Shown here: one piece after another, positions 44,819 through 49,789 of the stretch
How positions within the stretch are numbered: position 1 is the stretch's first letter
How the letters are laid out: each line of letters begins with the position of its first letter
Source of the DNA: Saccharopolyspora galaxeae
Lineage (GTDB): Bacteria > Actinomycetota > Actinomycetes > Mycobacteriales > Pseudonocardiaceae
NCBI RefSeq assembly: GCF_016526145.1
Contig: NZ_JADDUE010000005.1
Coordinates: forward strand, 310,001-374,000
DNA length: 64,000 bases
Direction: 5' to 3'
Program-made: the position numbers and the translations under genes
Notes under the pieces: generated by a model
What the model was told of the DNA's origin: nothing
Databases searched by the model: none
Seen by the model: only the letters and a program-made list of their open reading frames with translations

Positions 44819-45286
44819 TCAGAGCGGGTAGAGCCCGGGGAGGTTCACCACGATGGCTTCCTGGGTGCTGCGGGAGATCACCACGACCGCCTCCTCGTCG
44901 GGATCCGGATTCTCCTCCCGGTGCGGCACGTACGGCGGGACGAAGATGTAGTCACCGGGCTCGGTCTTGATGCGCACCTCGCCGGTGCCGTCGTGGAAGA
45001 CGAACTCGGGATGCCCGTCGGCGACGTAGATCGAGGTCTCCGACTCGCCGTGGTGGTGATCGGCGGAGGCGGTGTCCGGGGCGACGTGGGTCTGGCCGGT
45101 CCAGATCTTCTCGGAACCCACCGACTCGCCGCTGATCGCGGCCAGCCGCTTCATGCCCTCGGTCTGCGCGGTGCCCTCGTCGAGGTCGGCGCCGCGCACG
45201 TGGTGCAGCCGGGAACGCAGCGACTTGCGCTGCTCGGGGTCGACCTCGGAGGTCAGGTCTGGGTGGAAGGCGTCGTGCTCGGTCAT
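44819..45286 (-). CDS. Cupin-domain protein
   Basis: A 155-residue single cupin. Motif 1 is DHHHGESETSIYVADGHPEF, with three His and one Glu as metal ligands, and motif 2 is GDYIFVPPYVPHREEN. The N-terminal 60 residues are polar, with VRGADLDEGTAQTEGMKR. It is likely a small metal-dependent oxygenase or isomerase or a sensor. It lies 92 bp downstream of the hydrolase-Rrf2 fusion in the same direction and so probably belongs to the sulfur block. Substrate unknown. Confidence 0.85.
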   Translation of the reverse strand: MTEHDAFHPDLTSEVDPEQRKSLRSRLHHVRGADLDEGTAQTEGMKRLAAISGESVGSEKIWTGQTHVAPDTASADHHHGESETSIYVADGHPEFVFHDGTGEVRIKTEPGDYIFVPPYVPHREENPDPDEEAVVVISRSTQEAIVVNLPGLYPL

Positions 45287-45378: not shown

Positions 45379-46434
45379 TCATGCCGCGGCCGGCTGCGCG
45401 AGTTCGGCGACGCTGACCCGCGTCATGAACTCCGCCACCGTCCGCCCGAGCTGCTCCCACACCTCCGCGTGCGGGCCGTCTTCGTGGTGCGAGACCACTT
45501 CGCCCTCCACCGCGCGCACCACCTCGGCCAGCGTGATCTGCGCGGCAGGCCGGGCCAGCCAGTAACCGCCCTCGCAGCCGCGCCTGCTGCGCACCAGGCC
45601 GCCGCGGCGCAGCTCGACCATCAGGTTCACCAGCGAGTTCAGCGGAATGCCCTGGCTGCGGGCCATCGCCTCGCAGGTCTGCTGCTGCGGGCCGCGCGCC
45701 AGCTCGGTCAGCACCCGCAGCGAGTAGTCCACCCGCGCGGACACGTGCACCGGCGCGGCCCGGCGCGCGCGGGTGTTCCTGGCCGCGGGAACTTCGGGCA
45801 GCAGCACCGCGCCCTTGGCGATCTCTTCGCAGAACAGCACGATCCGCGCCGCGGCACTGCGGTGCGCCTTGTCGTTGAGGATGTCGTGCACGCCGTCCTT
45901 GAACGCGGCAACGGTCGCCTGCGAGTGTGCGGCGCCCAGCCGCGTCACCGGGTCGACGGGAGCGATCGGGTCGGACTCGCCGTGCAGCAGCAGCACCGGG
46001 ATCTCCGGCAGCCGTTGCGGTGGTTCGCCGGTGGATCCGGTCAGCGCTCCCCATTCGAAATCCGGGTCGGCGCCGAGGTGTTCGCGATGGATCGGGCACG
46101 ACGTGCGGGCGGTGATCTCGTCCTCCCGCCCGGCCGGTGGCTCCGCGGCGGCCAGCGGCGTTCCCGCCAGCACCAGCGCGTCTACCGGCTCGGCCAGCGC
46201 CGCCTCCCACGCCAGCAGCGCGCCGGTGTCCGAGCCCGCGAGCACGCGGGCGGCCTCGCCCGCACCGGCGAACCAGCTCTCCGGGGAGGCTTCGCGGTCC
46301 GGCGCCACGACGGTGTAGCCGTCGGCGGCCAGCCGCCGCCCGAGCCGCTCGTACACGCCGGGATGCTCGCCCCGCCCGTGCAGCACGACGACATGCCCCC
46401 GCGGAGCGTTCTCCGGCGCCCAGGTGCGCGTCAT
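45379..46434 (-). CDS. Alpha/beta-hydrolase fused to Rrf2-type DNA-binding domain
   Basis: A single 351-residue frame. Residues about 12-210 are an alpha/beta-hydrolase of lysophospholipase type: HVVVLHGRGEHPG, elbow AGSDTGALLAW with Asp69 in the nucleophile position (usually Ser), acid Asp155 in HGESDPIAP and His183 in KDGVHDILND. A basic linker (NTRARRAAP) leads to about 230-345, an Rrf2-type winged helix starting VSARVDYSLRVLTELARGP, with LVNLMVELRRGGLVRSRRG and GGYWLARPAAQITLAEVVRAVEG. The Fe-S cysteines of IscR-type proteins are absent; HHEDGPH stands there. No ribosome-binding site precedes the Rrf2 part, so it is a real fusion. ATG 46434 has GGAGGGG. It lies downstream of ssu-like genes. 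Confidence 0.85.
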   Translation of the reverse strand: MTRTWAPENAPRGHVVVLHGRGEHPGVYERLGRRLAADGYTVVAPDREASPESWFAGAGEAARVLAGSDTGALLAWEAALAEPVDALVLAGTPLAAAEPPAGREDEITARTSCPIHREHLGADPDFEWGALTGSTGEPPQRLPEIPVLLLHGESDPIAPVDPVTRLGAAHSQATVAAFKDGVHDILNDKAHRSAAARIVLFCEEIAKGAVLLPEVPAARNTRARRAAPVHVSARVDYSLRVLTELARGPQQQTCEAMARSQGIPLNSLVNLMVELRRGGLVRSRRGCEGGYWLARPAAQITLAEVVRAVEGEVVSHHEDGPHAEVWEQLGRTVAEFMTRVSVAELAQPAAA

Positions 46435-46497: not shown

Positions 46498-46548
46498 GAG
46501 TGAACGGACCGTTTGACCAATCTATTGGGACCAGCGGGCCGTTCACTC
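46498..46548. repeat. 51-bp palindromic element, copy D
   Basis: Starts GAGTGAACGGACCG, core GACCAATCTATTGGGAC, ends GGCCGTTCACTC. It lies upstream of the hydrolase-Rrf2 gene and 57 bp from copy E in the same orientation; the two differ at one or two bases and so are a recent duplication or conversion. Confidence 0.85.
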
Positions 46549-46605: not shown

Positions 46606-46656
46606 GAGCGAACGGACCGTTTGACCAATCTATTGGGACCAGCGGGCCGTTCACTC
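46606..46656. repeat. 51-bp palindromic element, copy E
   Basis: Starts GAGCGAACGGACCG, core GACCAATCTATTGGGAC, ends GGCCGTTCACTC. The stop codon of the monooxygenase gene (46655-46657) overlaps its last bases, as copy C overlaps the DUF397 stop. It may serve as a 3'-end structure for the monooxygenase mRNA. Confidence 0.85.
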
Positions 46657-47773
46657 AGGAAATCGCGGGTGCGGGGTTCGCCGCGCGGCGGGCGACGGTT
46701 TCGCGCACTCGCGGGAGGAGTTCGCGGCCGTAGTCGATGGCGTCGTCCAGCGGGTCGTAGCCGCGGATCAGCAGCGTGCTCACCCCGATGTCGACGTAGT
46801 CGGCCAGCGCCTCGGCCACCGTCTCGGCGGTGCCCACCAGCGCGGTGGAGTTCCCCGCCGCGTTCGTCGCGCGCGACGTGGGAGTCCACAGTGCACGGTC
46901 GTGCAGGTCTCGGCCCGCCGCGGCGGCGAGCAATCGCTGCGATCCGACGTTGGCGACCTCGGCGGAATTGCCGAGCGTCTTCGGCCCGGTGAACGAGCCG
47001 AATCCGCCGCGAGCCGCGTGGATCCGGTCCAGGATCCGGTGCGCCCGTTGCCACGCGAGTTCTTCGGTGGCACCGAGGATCGGCCGGAACGAGACGCTGA
47101 TGCCCGGGAGGTCGCAGCGCCCGGCGGCCTTCGCGGCAGCCCGCACCGACGCGATCTGCTCGGCGGTCTCGGCCAGCGGCTCGCCCCACAGCGCGAACAC
47201 GTCGGCGTGCTTGCCGCCGACCCGGTACGCCGCCTGCGACGATCCGCCGAAGTACAGCGGAATCCGGGGCTGCTGCACCGGTTTCACCCGGGTCTCGAAT
47301 CCCTCGAACCGGTAATGCTCGCCCACGTGGTCGATCGGGCCCGGCTCGGTCCAGGCCCGTTTGAGCACTTCGAGGTATTCGTCGGTGCGCGCGTAGCGCT
47401 CGTCCTTGCCGAGGTAGTCGCCGTCGCGCCGCTGCTCGGCGTCGCTGCCGCCGCTGATGACGTGCACCGCGATCCGCCCGCGCGCCAACGTGTCCAATGT
47501 GGAGAACGTGCGGGCGGCCAGCGTCGGCGCGACGAAACCCGGCCGGTGCGCGACCAGGAAACCGAGTCGTTCGGTGTGCGCGGCCACGTGCGCGGCGAGC
47601 TGCGTGCCGTCCGGCGAACCCGAACCGTGTCCGATGAGGACGCGGTCGAACCCGCCGTCCTCGTGCGCGCGGGCGAACCGGCGCAGGAACTCCGGGTCGA
47701 TCGCCGGGCCGCCGGCCGGATGGATCTCCGAGACGTGCTGCGCCCCGATCATGCCGACGATCTCGACCGACAT
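46655..47773 (-). CDS. ssuD: SsuD-like flavin-dependent sulfonate monooxygenase (LLM class)
   Basis: A 372-residue luciferase-like FMNH2-dependent monooxygenase. Typical blocks: HPAGGPAIDPEFLRRFARAHEDGGFDRVL cut into barrel strands, TLDTLARGRIAVHVISGGS, the phosphate-binding VKPVQQPRIPLYFGGSSQAA and HADVFALWGEP. The layout and SGG/GGSS motifs match alkanesulfonate monooxygenase SsuD, which frees sulfite from sulfonates when sulfate is scarce. It follows an SsuBC-like transporter by 120 bp on the same strand, behind a Cys leader peptide. No partner flavin reductase is in view. Specificity is inferred from context. Confidence 0.85.
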   Translation of the reverse strand: MSVEIVGMIGAQHVSEIHPAGGPAIDPEFLRRFARAHEDGGFDRVLIGHGSGSPDGTQLAAHVAAHTERLGFLVAHRPGFVAPTLAARTFSTLDTLARGRIAVHVISGGSDAEQRRDGDYLGKDERYARTDEYLEVLKRAWTEPGPIDHVGEHYRFEGFETRVKPVQQPRIPLYFGGSSQAAYRVGGKHADVFALWGEPLAETAEQIASVRAAAKAAGRCDLPGISVSFRPILGATEELAWQRAHRILDRIHAARGGFGSFTGPKTLGNSAEVANVGSQRLLAAAAGRDLHDRALWTPTSRATNAAGNSTALVGTAETVAEALADYVDIGVSTLLIRGYDPLDDAIDYGRELLPRVRETVARRAANPAPAIS

Positions 47774-47893: not shown

Positions 47894-48634
47894 TCAGTGG
47901 ACACCGAGCCAGGACAGCAGTTCCGCGCGCTGGGCCACGAAACCCGGCGCGGAAACGTCCCGCGGCCGTTCGTGCTCGACGAGCTGGTCGTGCGCGATGC
48001 CGCCGTCGCGCAGCACCAGCACTCGATCGGCCAGCAGCAGCGCCTCTTCGACGTCGTGGGTAACCAGCAGGATCGCGCAGCCGTGGCGCTGCCAGAGCTC
48101 GCCGACCAGGTTCTGCACCTTGATCCGGGTCAGCGCGTCGAGCGCGGAGAACGGCTCGTCCAGCAGCAACAGGTCCGGTTCCCGCACCAGCGCCCGCGCC
48201 AGCGAGGCGCGCTGCGCCTCACCGCCCGAGAGCACCTTGGGCCACACGTCGACCCGATGTCCCAGGCCGACCTCCTCCAGCGCCTCTATCGCCTTCGCCC
48301 GGTCCGGACGCCCGTCCAGGCCCAGGACCACGTTGCGCCACACCCGTTTCCACGGCATCAGCCGCGGGGACTGGAACGCCACCGCACGGCGCCGCGCGAC
48401 CTGCACGTCCCCGCCGATCTCGCGGTCCAGGTCGGCCAGGATGCGCAGCAGCGTGCTCTTTCCGCAGCCGCTGGGGCCGAGCAGGGCAACGAACTGGCCC
48501 GGCCGGATGTCCAAGTCGAGTCCATTGAGGACGGTGTGCTCGTCGAAGCTCTTGGTGAGCCCGCGCACCGACGCGGGCAGCGCCGTCGTCTCGGGCGCGC
48601 GCTCGGCTACGCTCCGCGGAAGGCCGGTCGCCAT
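47894..48634 (-). CDS. ssuB: ABC transporter ATPase (SsuB/TauB type)
   Basis: A 246-residue ATPase of the nitrate/sulfonate/taurine importer family. Walker A LLGPSGCGKST (about residues 53-63), Q-loop AFQSPRLMPW, signature LSGGEAQRASLARAL, Walker B LLLLDEPFSALD and switch THDVEEALLLADR. It energises import by the permease encoded upstream, with which it overlaps by 28 nt. No substrate-binding protein is encoded here. Assignment to sulfonates relies on the SsuD-like gene and the leader peptide. Confidence 0.9.
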   Translation of the reverse strand: MATGLPRSVAERAPETTALPASVRGLTKSFDEHTVLNGLDLDIRPGQFVALLGPSGCGKSTLLRILADLDREIGGDVQVARRRAVAFQSPRLMPWKRVWRNVVLGLDGRPDRAKAIEALEEVGLGHRVDVWPKVLSGGEAQRASLARALVREPDLLLLDEPFSALDALTRIKVQNLVGELWQRHGCAILLVTHDVEEALLLADRVLVLRDGGIAHDQLVEHERPRDVSAPGFVAQRAELLSWLGVH

Positions 48635-49464
48635 GCCAGAACAGTCCTTTCCAGAAGTCGCACGATGAAATCGGCCACCAGGCCGAGCAGGGCGTAGAGC
48701 ACCAGGCAGACCACGATCACGTCGGTCTGGAAGAACTCGCGCGCCATGTTCATCTCGTAGCCGATGCCCGCGGTGGCGTTGATCGTTTCGCCGAACACCA
48801 GCGCCAGCCACGCCGAACCGAGCGAGTACCGCAGGCCCACCAGGGCGTTGGGCATCGCAGCGGGCAGGATCACGTGGCGCACCTGGGCGAACCGGCCGAG
48901 CCCGAGCGTCCTGGACGCCTCCACCAGGCCGGCGTCGACGTTGCGGATGCCGCCGTAGATGTTCATGTACAGCGGGAAGGTCACTGCCAGCGCGATCAGG
49001 ATGATCTTGGGTTCCTCGCCGATGCCGAACCAGATGATCAGCAGCGGGATCAGTCCGATCACCGGAACCGTGCGCAGCATCTGCATCGGCGCGTCGATCA
49101 GGTCCTCACCCCGGCGGAACAACCCCGACAGGGTCGCCAGCACCACGGCTGCGACCAGCCCGCACACGAGTCCGGCACCGACGCGTTGCACCGAGGTCAG
49201 CACGGCCGACTGGATCCGGCCCTCCTCCCACAGCTCGCCCGCGGTGGCCAGCACCGTGGCCGGGGAGGCCAGCGTGTCCTCGTCGAGCAGGCCGGTACCG
49301 CTGAGCACCTGCCACAGCACGATCAGCCCGACGGGACTGAAGGTTTTGAACAACCAGCGAGGAATCCGCGGGCGGTTCCTGGCTTTGCTGTTCCGGACGT
49401 TGGTGACCGCGATGGCATCCGGGTCGGCCCGGGCGCCGTTCGGGACGTGGTCGGGCAAGCTCAT
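48607..49464 (-). CDS. ssuC: ABC transporter permease (SsuC/TauC type)
   Basis: A 285-residue membrane permease with a cytoplasmic N-terminal 40 residues and about six helices. The coupling EAA loop is SRTLGLGRFAQVRHVILPAAMPNALVGLR. Start set at ATG 49464 because GGAG is 7 nt upstream; GTG 49470 would be too close to it. First transporter gene after the leader peptide, which ends 99 bp upstream. The gap contains a perfect 14-bp palindrome (49493-49506) and CCTCC-rich sequence, suggesting RNA-level control. Confidence 0.9.
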   Translation of the reverse strand: MSLPDHVPNGARADPDAIAVTNVRNSKARNRPRIPRWLFKTFSPVGLIVLWQVLSGTGLLDEDTLASPATVLATAGELWEEGRIQSAVLTSVQRVGAGLVCGLVAAVVLATLSGLFRRGEDLIDAPMQMLRTVPVIGLIPLLIIWFGIGEEPKIILIALAVTFPLYMNIYGGIRNVDAGLVEASRTLGLGRFAQVRHVILPAAMPNALVGLRYSLGSAWLALVFGETINATAGIGYEMNMAREFFQTDVIVVCLVLYALLGLVADFIVRLLERTVLAWRPAFRGA

Positions 49465-49563: not shown

Positions 49564-49641
49564 TCAGGCGCTACAGAGCGCGGACGACACACGCGCGAAA
49601 TCCACGTATCCGCGTGTGGTGAGAGTCGCCGTCCGGGCCAT
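49564..49641 (-). CDS. Cys-containing leader peptide upstream of ssu genes (25 aa)
   Basis: A 25-residue frame from ATG 49641 to TGA 49564-49566 containing RGYVDFARVSSALC. I recall this fits the actinobacterial putative leader-peptide pattern R-x-(H/Y)-V-D-(L/F)-x-R-x-S-S-A-(L/I)-C found before sulfur-assimilation genes. No Shine-Dalgarno is present. A -10 (TACCGT) ends 6 nt before the ATG with a -35 (TTTACG) 17 bp above, so translation is leaderless. The single Cys near the end suggests ribosome stalling or speed at Cys senses cysteine supply and controls the downstream genes. Mechanism inferred; peptide itself seen directly. Confidence 0.7.
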   Translation of the reverse strand: MARTATLTTRGYVDFARVSSALCSA

Positions 49642-49647
49642 GTGGTG

Positions 49648-49676
49648 ACGGTATCGACGCCCTGCCCGGCCGTAAA
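49648..49676 (-). promoter_or_regulatory. Promoter of the leader peptide / ssu operon
   Basis: Minus strand: TTTACG (49676-49671), 17-bp spacer, TACCGT (49653-49648), then 6 nt to the leader ATG. This gives a transcription start at or next to the A of the start codon. Confidence 0.65.
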
Positions 49677-49789
49677 CCCAACCCGGAGAGCCGAGATTCG
49701 ATTCCCAGCCCGTGGGAGCCCGCCGCGGACTGTGAATTCCCCCAGAACCGCCCCGGGAAGCTCACCAGCACGGATACGATCGGCACATC

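Follow-up and report, generated by a model that had tools for sequence, protein, structure and literature searches.

Rrf2 regulators are small proteins that sense through Fe–S clusters or, in the case of CymR, together with a separate enzyme partner. The Fe–S regulators of the family (IscR, NsrR and RsrR) carry three Fe–S cysteines after the wing; CymR has no such trio. Chimeras of an enzyme and a regulator are represented by MocR/GabR, BirA and PutA, and hydrolase-fold receptors by RsbQ and KAI2/D14. One report describes CymR as a regulator of cysteine metabolism that acts with the enzyme CysK (PMC2869319). A second report presents IGTS8_peg394 from Rhodococcus qingshengii as a CymR-homologous Rrf2 protein, proposed as a sulfur regulator, with no adjoining sulfur genes (PMC8557817).

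The gene described here lies on the minus strand at 45379..46434 of the window, the whole stretch of 64,000 nucleotides that was analysed, and encodes a hydrolase::Rrf2 fusion of 351 residues. The preliminary description had read it as a single frame joining a hydrolase, with the elbow G67-S-D69-T-G71 and D155 and H183, to an Rrf2 winged helix starting near residue 230, and each of these readings is borne out. The gene is one unbroken frame opening with ATG at 46434, and both Pfam domains score above their cut-offs: Hydrolase_4 in the N-terminal half (E = 1.9e-14, 54 bits against a 27-bit cut-off) and Rrf2 (PF02082) at residues 232–345 (E = 3.6e-25, 89.1 bits against a cut-off of 30). Both are found in all 20 orthologues. 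Membership of the Rrf2 family is also indicated by the NCBIfam model TIGR00738 rrf2_super (81.9 bits versus 73.3), and profile and fold together place the N-terminal half in the α/β-hydrolase superfamily. The hydrolase half comprises residues 1–215 (45790..46434, minus strand) and the Rrf2 half about residues 230–351 (45382..45747, minus strand). An earlier opening is possible at a GTG 16 codons upstream; the fusion frames of three relatives (L053, L032 and L070) begin at the codon that corresponds to ATG 46434. The join between hydrolase and Rrf2 is real and is conserved among relatives.

In 200 genomes of the family, taken to be the Pseudonocardiaceae because S. spinosa belongs there, a full-length fusion was found in 16, the window's own genome counted: all six of its own genus (g1), four of ten in each of g26 and g5, one of two in g19 and one of ten in g43. 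A named collection yielded matches at eight loci, six of them full-length and all from Saccharopolyspora, the other two covering the Rrf2 half only. Saccharopolyspora sp. NFXS83 and S. spinosa were already among the 16 family genomes and were counted once, so that four were added to give an alignment of 20 fusions, whose identity to that of the window is 53–99%. No further full-length fusion was listed when profile searches were extended to the order (298 genomes), the class (394) and the phylum (296), in overlapping samples of which five to seven candidates per genome were scored. The three full-length matches in the order (G000, G050 and G004) were all in the family set already, and the class and phylum searches gave a full-length match in the own genome only. 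In the trees of either half a single branch separates the 20 fusions (support 100/99 and 100/98), which is consistent with one origin of the fusion.

Comparison with CymR from B. subtilis and S. aureus (PDB entries 2y75 and 3t8r) indicates that both proteins combine an Rrf2 fold, sulfur genes and an enzyme partner. The partner of CymR is a separate protein, an OAS thiol-lyase, whereas that of the fusion is a covalently attached hydrolase, and by analogy the fusion is probably a covalent counterpart of the CymR–CysK pair. IscR, RsrR and NsrR share the winged-helix half with the fusion, which differs from them in lacking the Fe–S cysteines and in carrying a fused enzyme. MocR/GabR, BirA, PutA, RsbQ and KAI2/D14 resemble it in using an enzyme fold as, or joining one to, a regulator, but have another DNA-binding half or none and are not part of a sulfur operon. 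IGTS8_peg394 is likewise an actinobacterial Rrf2 protein tied to sulfur, and the section of the report that deals with it does not mention a fusion (PMC8557817). More widely, searches of open-licence literature that included PMC8557817, PMC3466318 and PMC2869319, judged mainly by title and abstract opening, listed no report of an Rrf2–hydrolase fusion, so the architecture was not met there as a family already described.

We lean towards the view that the fusion is an Rrf2 regulator of sulfonate genes with a new architecture, in which the retained hydrolase is probably the sensor and for which we infer binding to a dyad, repression and coupling to a ligand. Such a fusion may let a soil actinobacterium read a sulfur metabolite directly through a gene switch. 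As a stable combination it offers a test case for how the state of an enzyme could be passed to an Rrf2 DNA-binding domain, and it puts forward a candidate regulator of sulfonate genes in actinobacteria, together with a predicted operator and a small regulon.

In the hydrolase half, Asp69, Asp155, His183, Arg21 and Cys113 are invariant in all 20 fusions. The first three are likewise present in all 31 stand-alone relatives, Arg21 in 30 of 31 (in the remaining one, L075, that end is missing from the alignment) and Cys113 in 30 of 31 (the exception being L052). Profile alignment to the monoacylglycerol lipase 6qe2 sets Asp69 opposite the serine of GHSLG and Asp155 and His183 opposite an aspartate and a histidine, which we take to be the catalytic residues of that enzyme. 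A model of the hydrolase half alone reached a pLDDT of 67.1, and a Foldseek search with it returned monoglyceride lipases (best E 1.4e-11; TM by query length 0.67–0.75 in the first five rows). The half thus shares its fold and triad positions with the monoacylglycerol lipases (Rv0183, PDB entry 6eic; 6qe2) but, unlike them, has an aspartate in place of the serine and an RTxCPxHR motif containing Cys113; its cap, as judged from the model helices, is small in comparison with theirs. It does not belong with the serine hydrolases or monoacylglycerol lipases, as Asp69 replaces the GxSxG serine in every one of the 20 fusions and 31 stand-alone relatives. The residue set expected of Asp-nucleophile hydrolases (nucleophilic aspartate, Asp/Glu and histidine) is present, and the half is probably a retained enzyme of this kind with predicted activity. 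Because the triad is conserved, the alignments favour a working enzyme more than a dead receptor. A role for this half as a sensor is plausible.

The stand-alone hydrolases (L040–L086) carry the motifs GxDxGA, RTxCPxH and HDxLND and extend to further families and orders within the class. In 29 of their 31 loci a monooxygenase, cupin or SsuB-type query matched within the fetched stretch, a count which is weak evidence since the ATPase and monooxygenase families are large and the loci were those with the highest scores. L041, the one member scanned, matched Hydrolase_4 only, with no NCBIfam model over its cut-off. The fusion draws attention to a family of likely Asp-nucleophile hydrolases in organosulfur-type clusters beyond the Pseudonocardiaceae, for which no specific model scored above cut-off in the member scanned.

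The Rrf2 half contains two cysteines, Cys254 and Cys287 (in RGC[ED]GGY), that are invariant across all 20 fusions. The full sequence of the fusion protein has no cysteine beyond residue 287, and the usual Rrf2 Fe–S trio is therefore absent, as the preliminary description had stated; the protein does not belong to the Fe–S branch represented by IscR, NsrR and RsrR. That account had also placed the stretch HHEDGPH where the cysteines would be, as their replacement, and here it did not hold up: the stretch occurs in two of the 20 fusions, those of the window and of a genome of the same species, and it was rejected as a metal or cluster site on this ground. L063 and L061 have lost part of it. The nearest solved relatives of the Rrf2 half are 4cic and CymR (2y75 and 3t8r). 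The AlphaFold model of the full-length fusion is poor (pLDDT 58.8), and domain–domain contacts taken from it were rejected for this reason; a Foldseek search with this weak model ranked CymR first. The fusion is not a CymR equivalog, scoring 56.9 with NF047409 against a cut-off of 195. The helix motif of the half is IPLNSLVNLMVELRR; the fusions read [IV]PLNSLVN in a helix that we presume to be the DNA-recognition helix.

Both cysteines are also present in seven of 19 unfused Rrf2 relatives (L067, L072–L075, L089 and L091), and Cys254 alone in two more (L068 and L092). The recognition helix of the unfused two-cysteine proteins reads IPFRFLKS or IP[AP]RFIKA. By eye, TGTCAAGAGGTGTCC is kept upstream of the unfused two-cysteine gene in L072–L075 and L089, and it is a candidate operator of these relatives. 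At four loci of genus g119 (L072–L075) a stand-alone two-cysteine Rrf2 gene is divergent to a cupin gene, with a hydrolase about 9–12 kb away. A different arrangement is found in G141, in which a monooxygenase, hydrolase, Rrf2 and cupin gene follow one another and the hydrolase and Rrf2 genes are separate, sharing ATGA. Taken together, the G141 pairing and the L072–L075 layout mean that hydrolase and Rrf2 seem to be partners beyond the fusion. G141 was considered as the ancestral unfused state and rejected: neither tree sets it beside the fused clade (its placement in the hydrolase tree has weak support), and we therefore regard it as a separate pairing.

These unfused forms bear on the alternative that best withstands the data, namely that a pathway enzyme and an ordinary regulator were joined for convenience of co-expression and do not signal to each other, Cys254 and Cys287 possibly serving as the sensor of the regulator. 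The full conservation of the catalytic residues, the stand-alone hydrolases in similar clusters, the two separate genes of G141 and the cysteine pair of the seven unfused relatives would all fit such an origin. It must nevertheless account for 20 genomes that keep the fusion with only a short linker, and lasting gene fusions usually join functionally cooperating parts. We consider a join of this kind unlikely, though it deserves more weight than the other alternatives.

The view that we favour, of a regulator with its own sensing enzyme, places the fusion in a sulfonate-type operon. On the minus strand the window carries an SsuC-like ABC permease (48607..49464), an SsuB-like ABC ATPase (47894..48634), an SsuD/SfnG-like luciferase-type monooxygenase (46655..47773), the fusion and, as the next gene 3' of it, a cupin (44819..45286), a position that a cupin gene also occupies in all 19 other fused loci. 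The order ssuC, ssuB, SsuD-like monooxygenase, fusion and cupin on one strand is found at 20 of 20 loci, the window included. The monooxygenase is related to SsuD but is not its equivalog (216.9 with TIGR03565 against a cut-off of 518.2). An SsuA-like binding protein, of Pfam families such as NMT1, is encoded in seven of eight loci with individually called genes, before the fusion in L033, L036, L053, L058, L060 and L070 and behind the cupin in L064; none was recognised among the called genes of L061. The SsuBC/SsuD-type neighbours and the link with CymR proposed in the preliminary description are supported, CymR being among the nearest solved Rrf2 structures. Of its interpretation as a whole, the single-frame fusion in a sulfonate-type operon stands and the HHEDGPH substitute for the Fe–S cysteines does not.

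The roughly 220 bp 5' of the window's fusion contain no called gene. Between monooxygenase and fusion the window contains two copies of a 51-nucleotide hairpin repeat (46498–46548 and 46606–46656) that are 98% identical, at the place taken by the SsuA-like gene in L053, L070 and other relatives. A further copy with three mismatches is present elsewhere in the own genome (C29:318107).

Upstream of ssuC lies a cysteine-type leader peptide, MARTATLTTRGYVDFARVSSALCSA (49564..49641, minus strand), which scores 22.8 bits with NCBIfam NF042934, below the 27-bit cut-off. This type is listed in NCBIfam as a putative leader peptide, and a second leader that was tested (L164) gave no match. The leader upstream of ssuC in most cases ends in SALC and one or two further residues. 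A promoter-like TTTACG-N17-TACCGT (49648..49676, minus strand), read by eye, ends 6 bp before the leader ATG, and its −35 box is overlapped by a predicted operator dyad, AATCTCGGCTCTCCGGGTTGGGTTT (49674..49698, minus strand). The 25 bp consensus of the dyad is AATCCCAAC-N7-GTTGGGWTT, the left arm being weak in the window's genus. Of the 20 fused loci, 19 have the dyad 52–58 bp before the ssuC leader, with scores of 12–17 out of 18 positions; neither dyad nor leader was found in L035, the contig of which starts 0.5 kb upstream of ssuC. Control windows drawn from these loci, with the true dyad sites excluded, number 19,000; 69 of them reach a score of 12 and 14 reach 13, counts to be read in the light of a consensus that was picked after these loci had been inspected. 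The dyad score is 8–11 at five other leader-like peptides (the second ones of L060, L061, L064 and L163, and L094), 15 in L167 and 14–15 at second sites in the window's genus.

Eight sites in the own genome fit the promoter pattern with up to three mismatches, and the three that precede such a leader have the best dyads (14–15 versus 11–13 for the others). One of them belongs to the operon described here; behind another come a leader, an FMN reductase gene and a gene for a luciferase-type monooxygenase. The third (G000:C30:148800; L110 and L166) has a dyad and the leader peptide MPHRPMLTTREHVDLSRVCAARCPRCPR; in G101 and G079 the genes behind this leader encode a binding protein and a luciferase-type monooxygenase (the latter identified by Pfam in G101 and by eye in G079). 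These two genes were not called at C30:148800 of the own genome, where the leader is apparently orphaned.

A looser form of the dyad pattern is present in 42 of 200 family genomes (14 of 16 with the fusion and 28 of 184 without it), and the reversed pattern in 12 of 200. The match in G129 is another site without a leader. At least one site was inspected in each of the 28 fusion-less genomes (for G092, G026 and G032 the first only), and a leader of this type was seen behind the inspected site in one, G145. Seven sites that passed a loose rule of a short peptide with a late cysteine (L132, L136, L143, L144, L155, L159 and L160) were set aside on visual inspection, the R-x-HVD motif being absent. 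In 20 kb of G145 (L167) the dyad, leader, ssuC and ssuB are kept, the monooxygenase is a stub, and fusion and cupin were not found; this operon is decaying. With a stricter pattern allowing two mismatches, the 298 genomes of the order gave 21 matches versus 23 for the reversed pattern; the own genome was missed and the known operon sites recovered were those of G004 and G050 only. Chance matches are common at the looser dyad patterns. The same dyad was sought near unfused Rrf2 genes (L067, L068, L072–L076, L089, L091 and L092) and was rejected as a shared site, one of these ten loci (L091) reaching 13 of 18; the two-cysteine proteins among them differ from the fusions in their recognition motif. 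The link between dyad and fusion is one of co-occurrence only.

These observations suggest the following mechanism. A single polypeptide would consist of an Asp-nucleophile α/β-hydrolase, a short linker and an Rrf2 winged-helix regulator, and would belong to an operon for the scavenging of sulfonates or other organosulfur compounds, made up of SsuCB, the SsuD-like monooxygenase, the cupin and often an SsuA-like protein. As a dimer, the Rrf2 half most likely binds the predicted dyad and, because this overlaps the −35 box, probably represses the operon promoter. The substrate or product of the hydrolase, an intermediate of organosulfur breakdown, would shift the DNA-binding half, and the cysteine-type leader behind the promoter would add a second, cysteine-dependent control, presumably by attenuation. 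In its most specific form, in which the hydrolase senses organosulfur processing by turnover and signals to the Rrf2 half on a dyad placed before the attenuator, flux and cysteine would be read at one promoter; we offer this version tentatively. If true, it would to our knowledge make the fusion the first Rrf2 regulator to carry its own enzyme.

The dyad could instead serve another sulfur regulator, with the fusion controlling something else. The persistence of the dyad in G145 without the fusion would agree with this, as would a MarR-type regulator gene that lies upstream in L033, L058 and, as judged by eye, L167. Against it, inspection by eye of the called genes of eight loci revealed no other regulator inside the gene block, and in six of the eight no MarR-type gene was recognised either. 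The dyad and leader moreover accompany the fusion at all but one of the 20 loci, and the length of about 25 bp fits that of Rrf2 binding sites. We therefore think it improbable that the dyad belongs to a different protein, and retain it as the predicted operator of the fusion.

The junction of the two halves was inspected for frameshifts and separate starts. The linker is short and its indels are all in frame across the 20-row alignment. Between residues 206 and 246 at least one start codon (ATG, GTG or TTG) is present in 18 of 20 fusions, the window's junction having five GTG codons; in L063 and L065 all three codons are absent, so that an internal start is not conserved. That the fusion is an artefact of frameshift or assembly, or one frame yielding two proteins, is hardly credible in spite of these five GTG codons and of the G141 genes that overlap in different frames, since the same join in 20 genomes rules out a frameshift and is accompanied by in-frame indels and by two junctions without a start codon. 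At the 3' end of the gene, the fusion stop overlaps the called cupin start by 4 nucleotides in L058 (7768–7771) and L060 (8829–8832), and this overlap suggests that translation of the two genes may be coupled in these loci.
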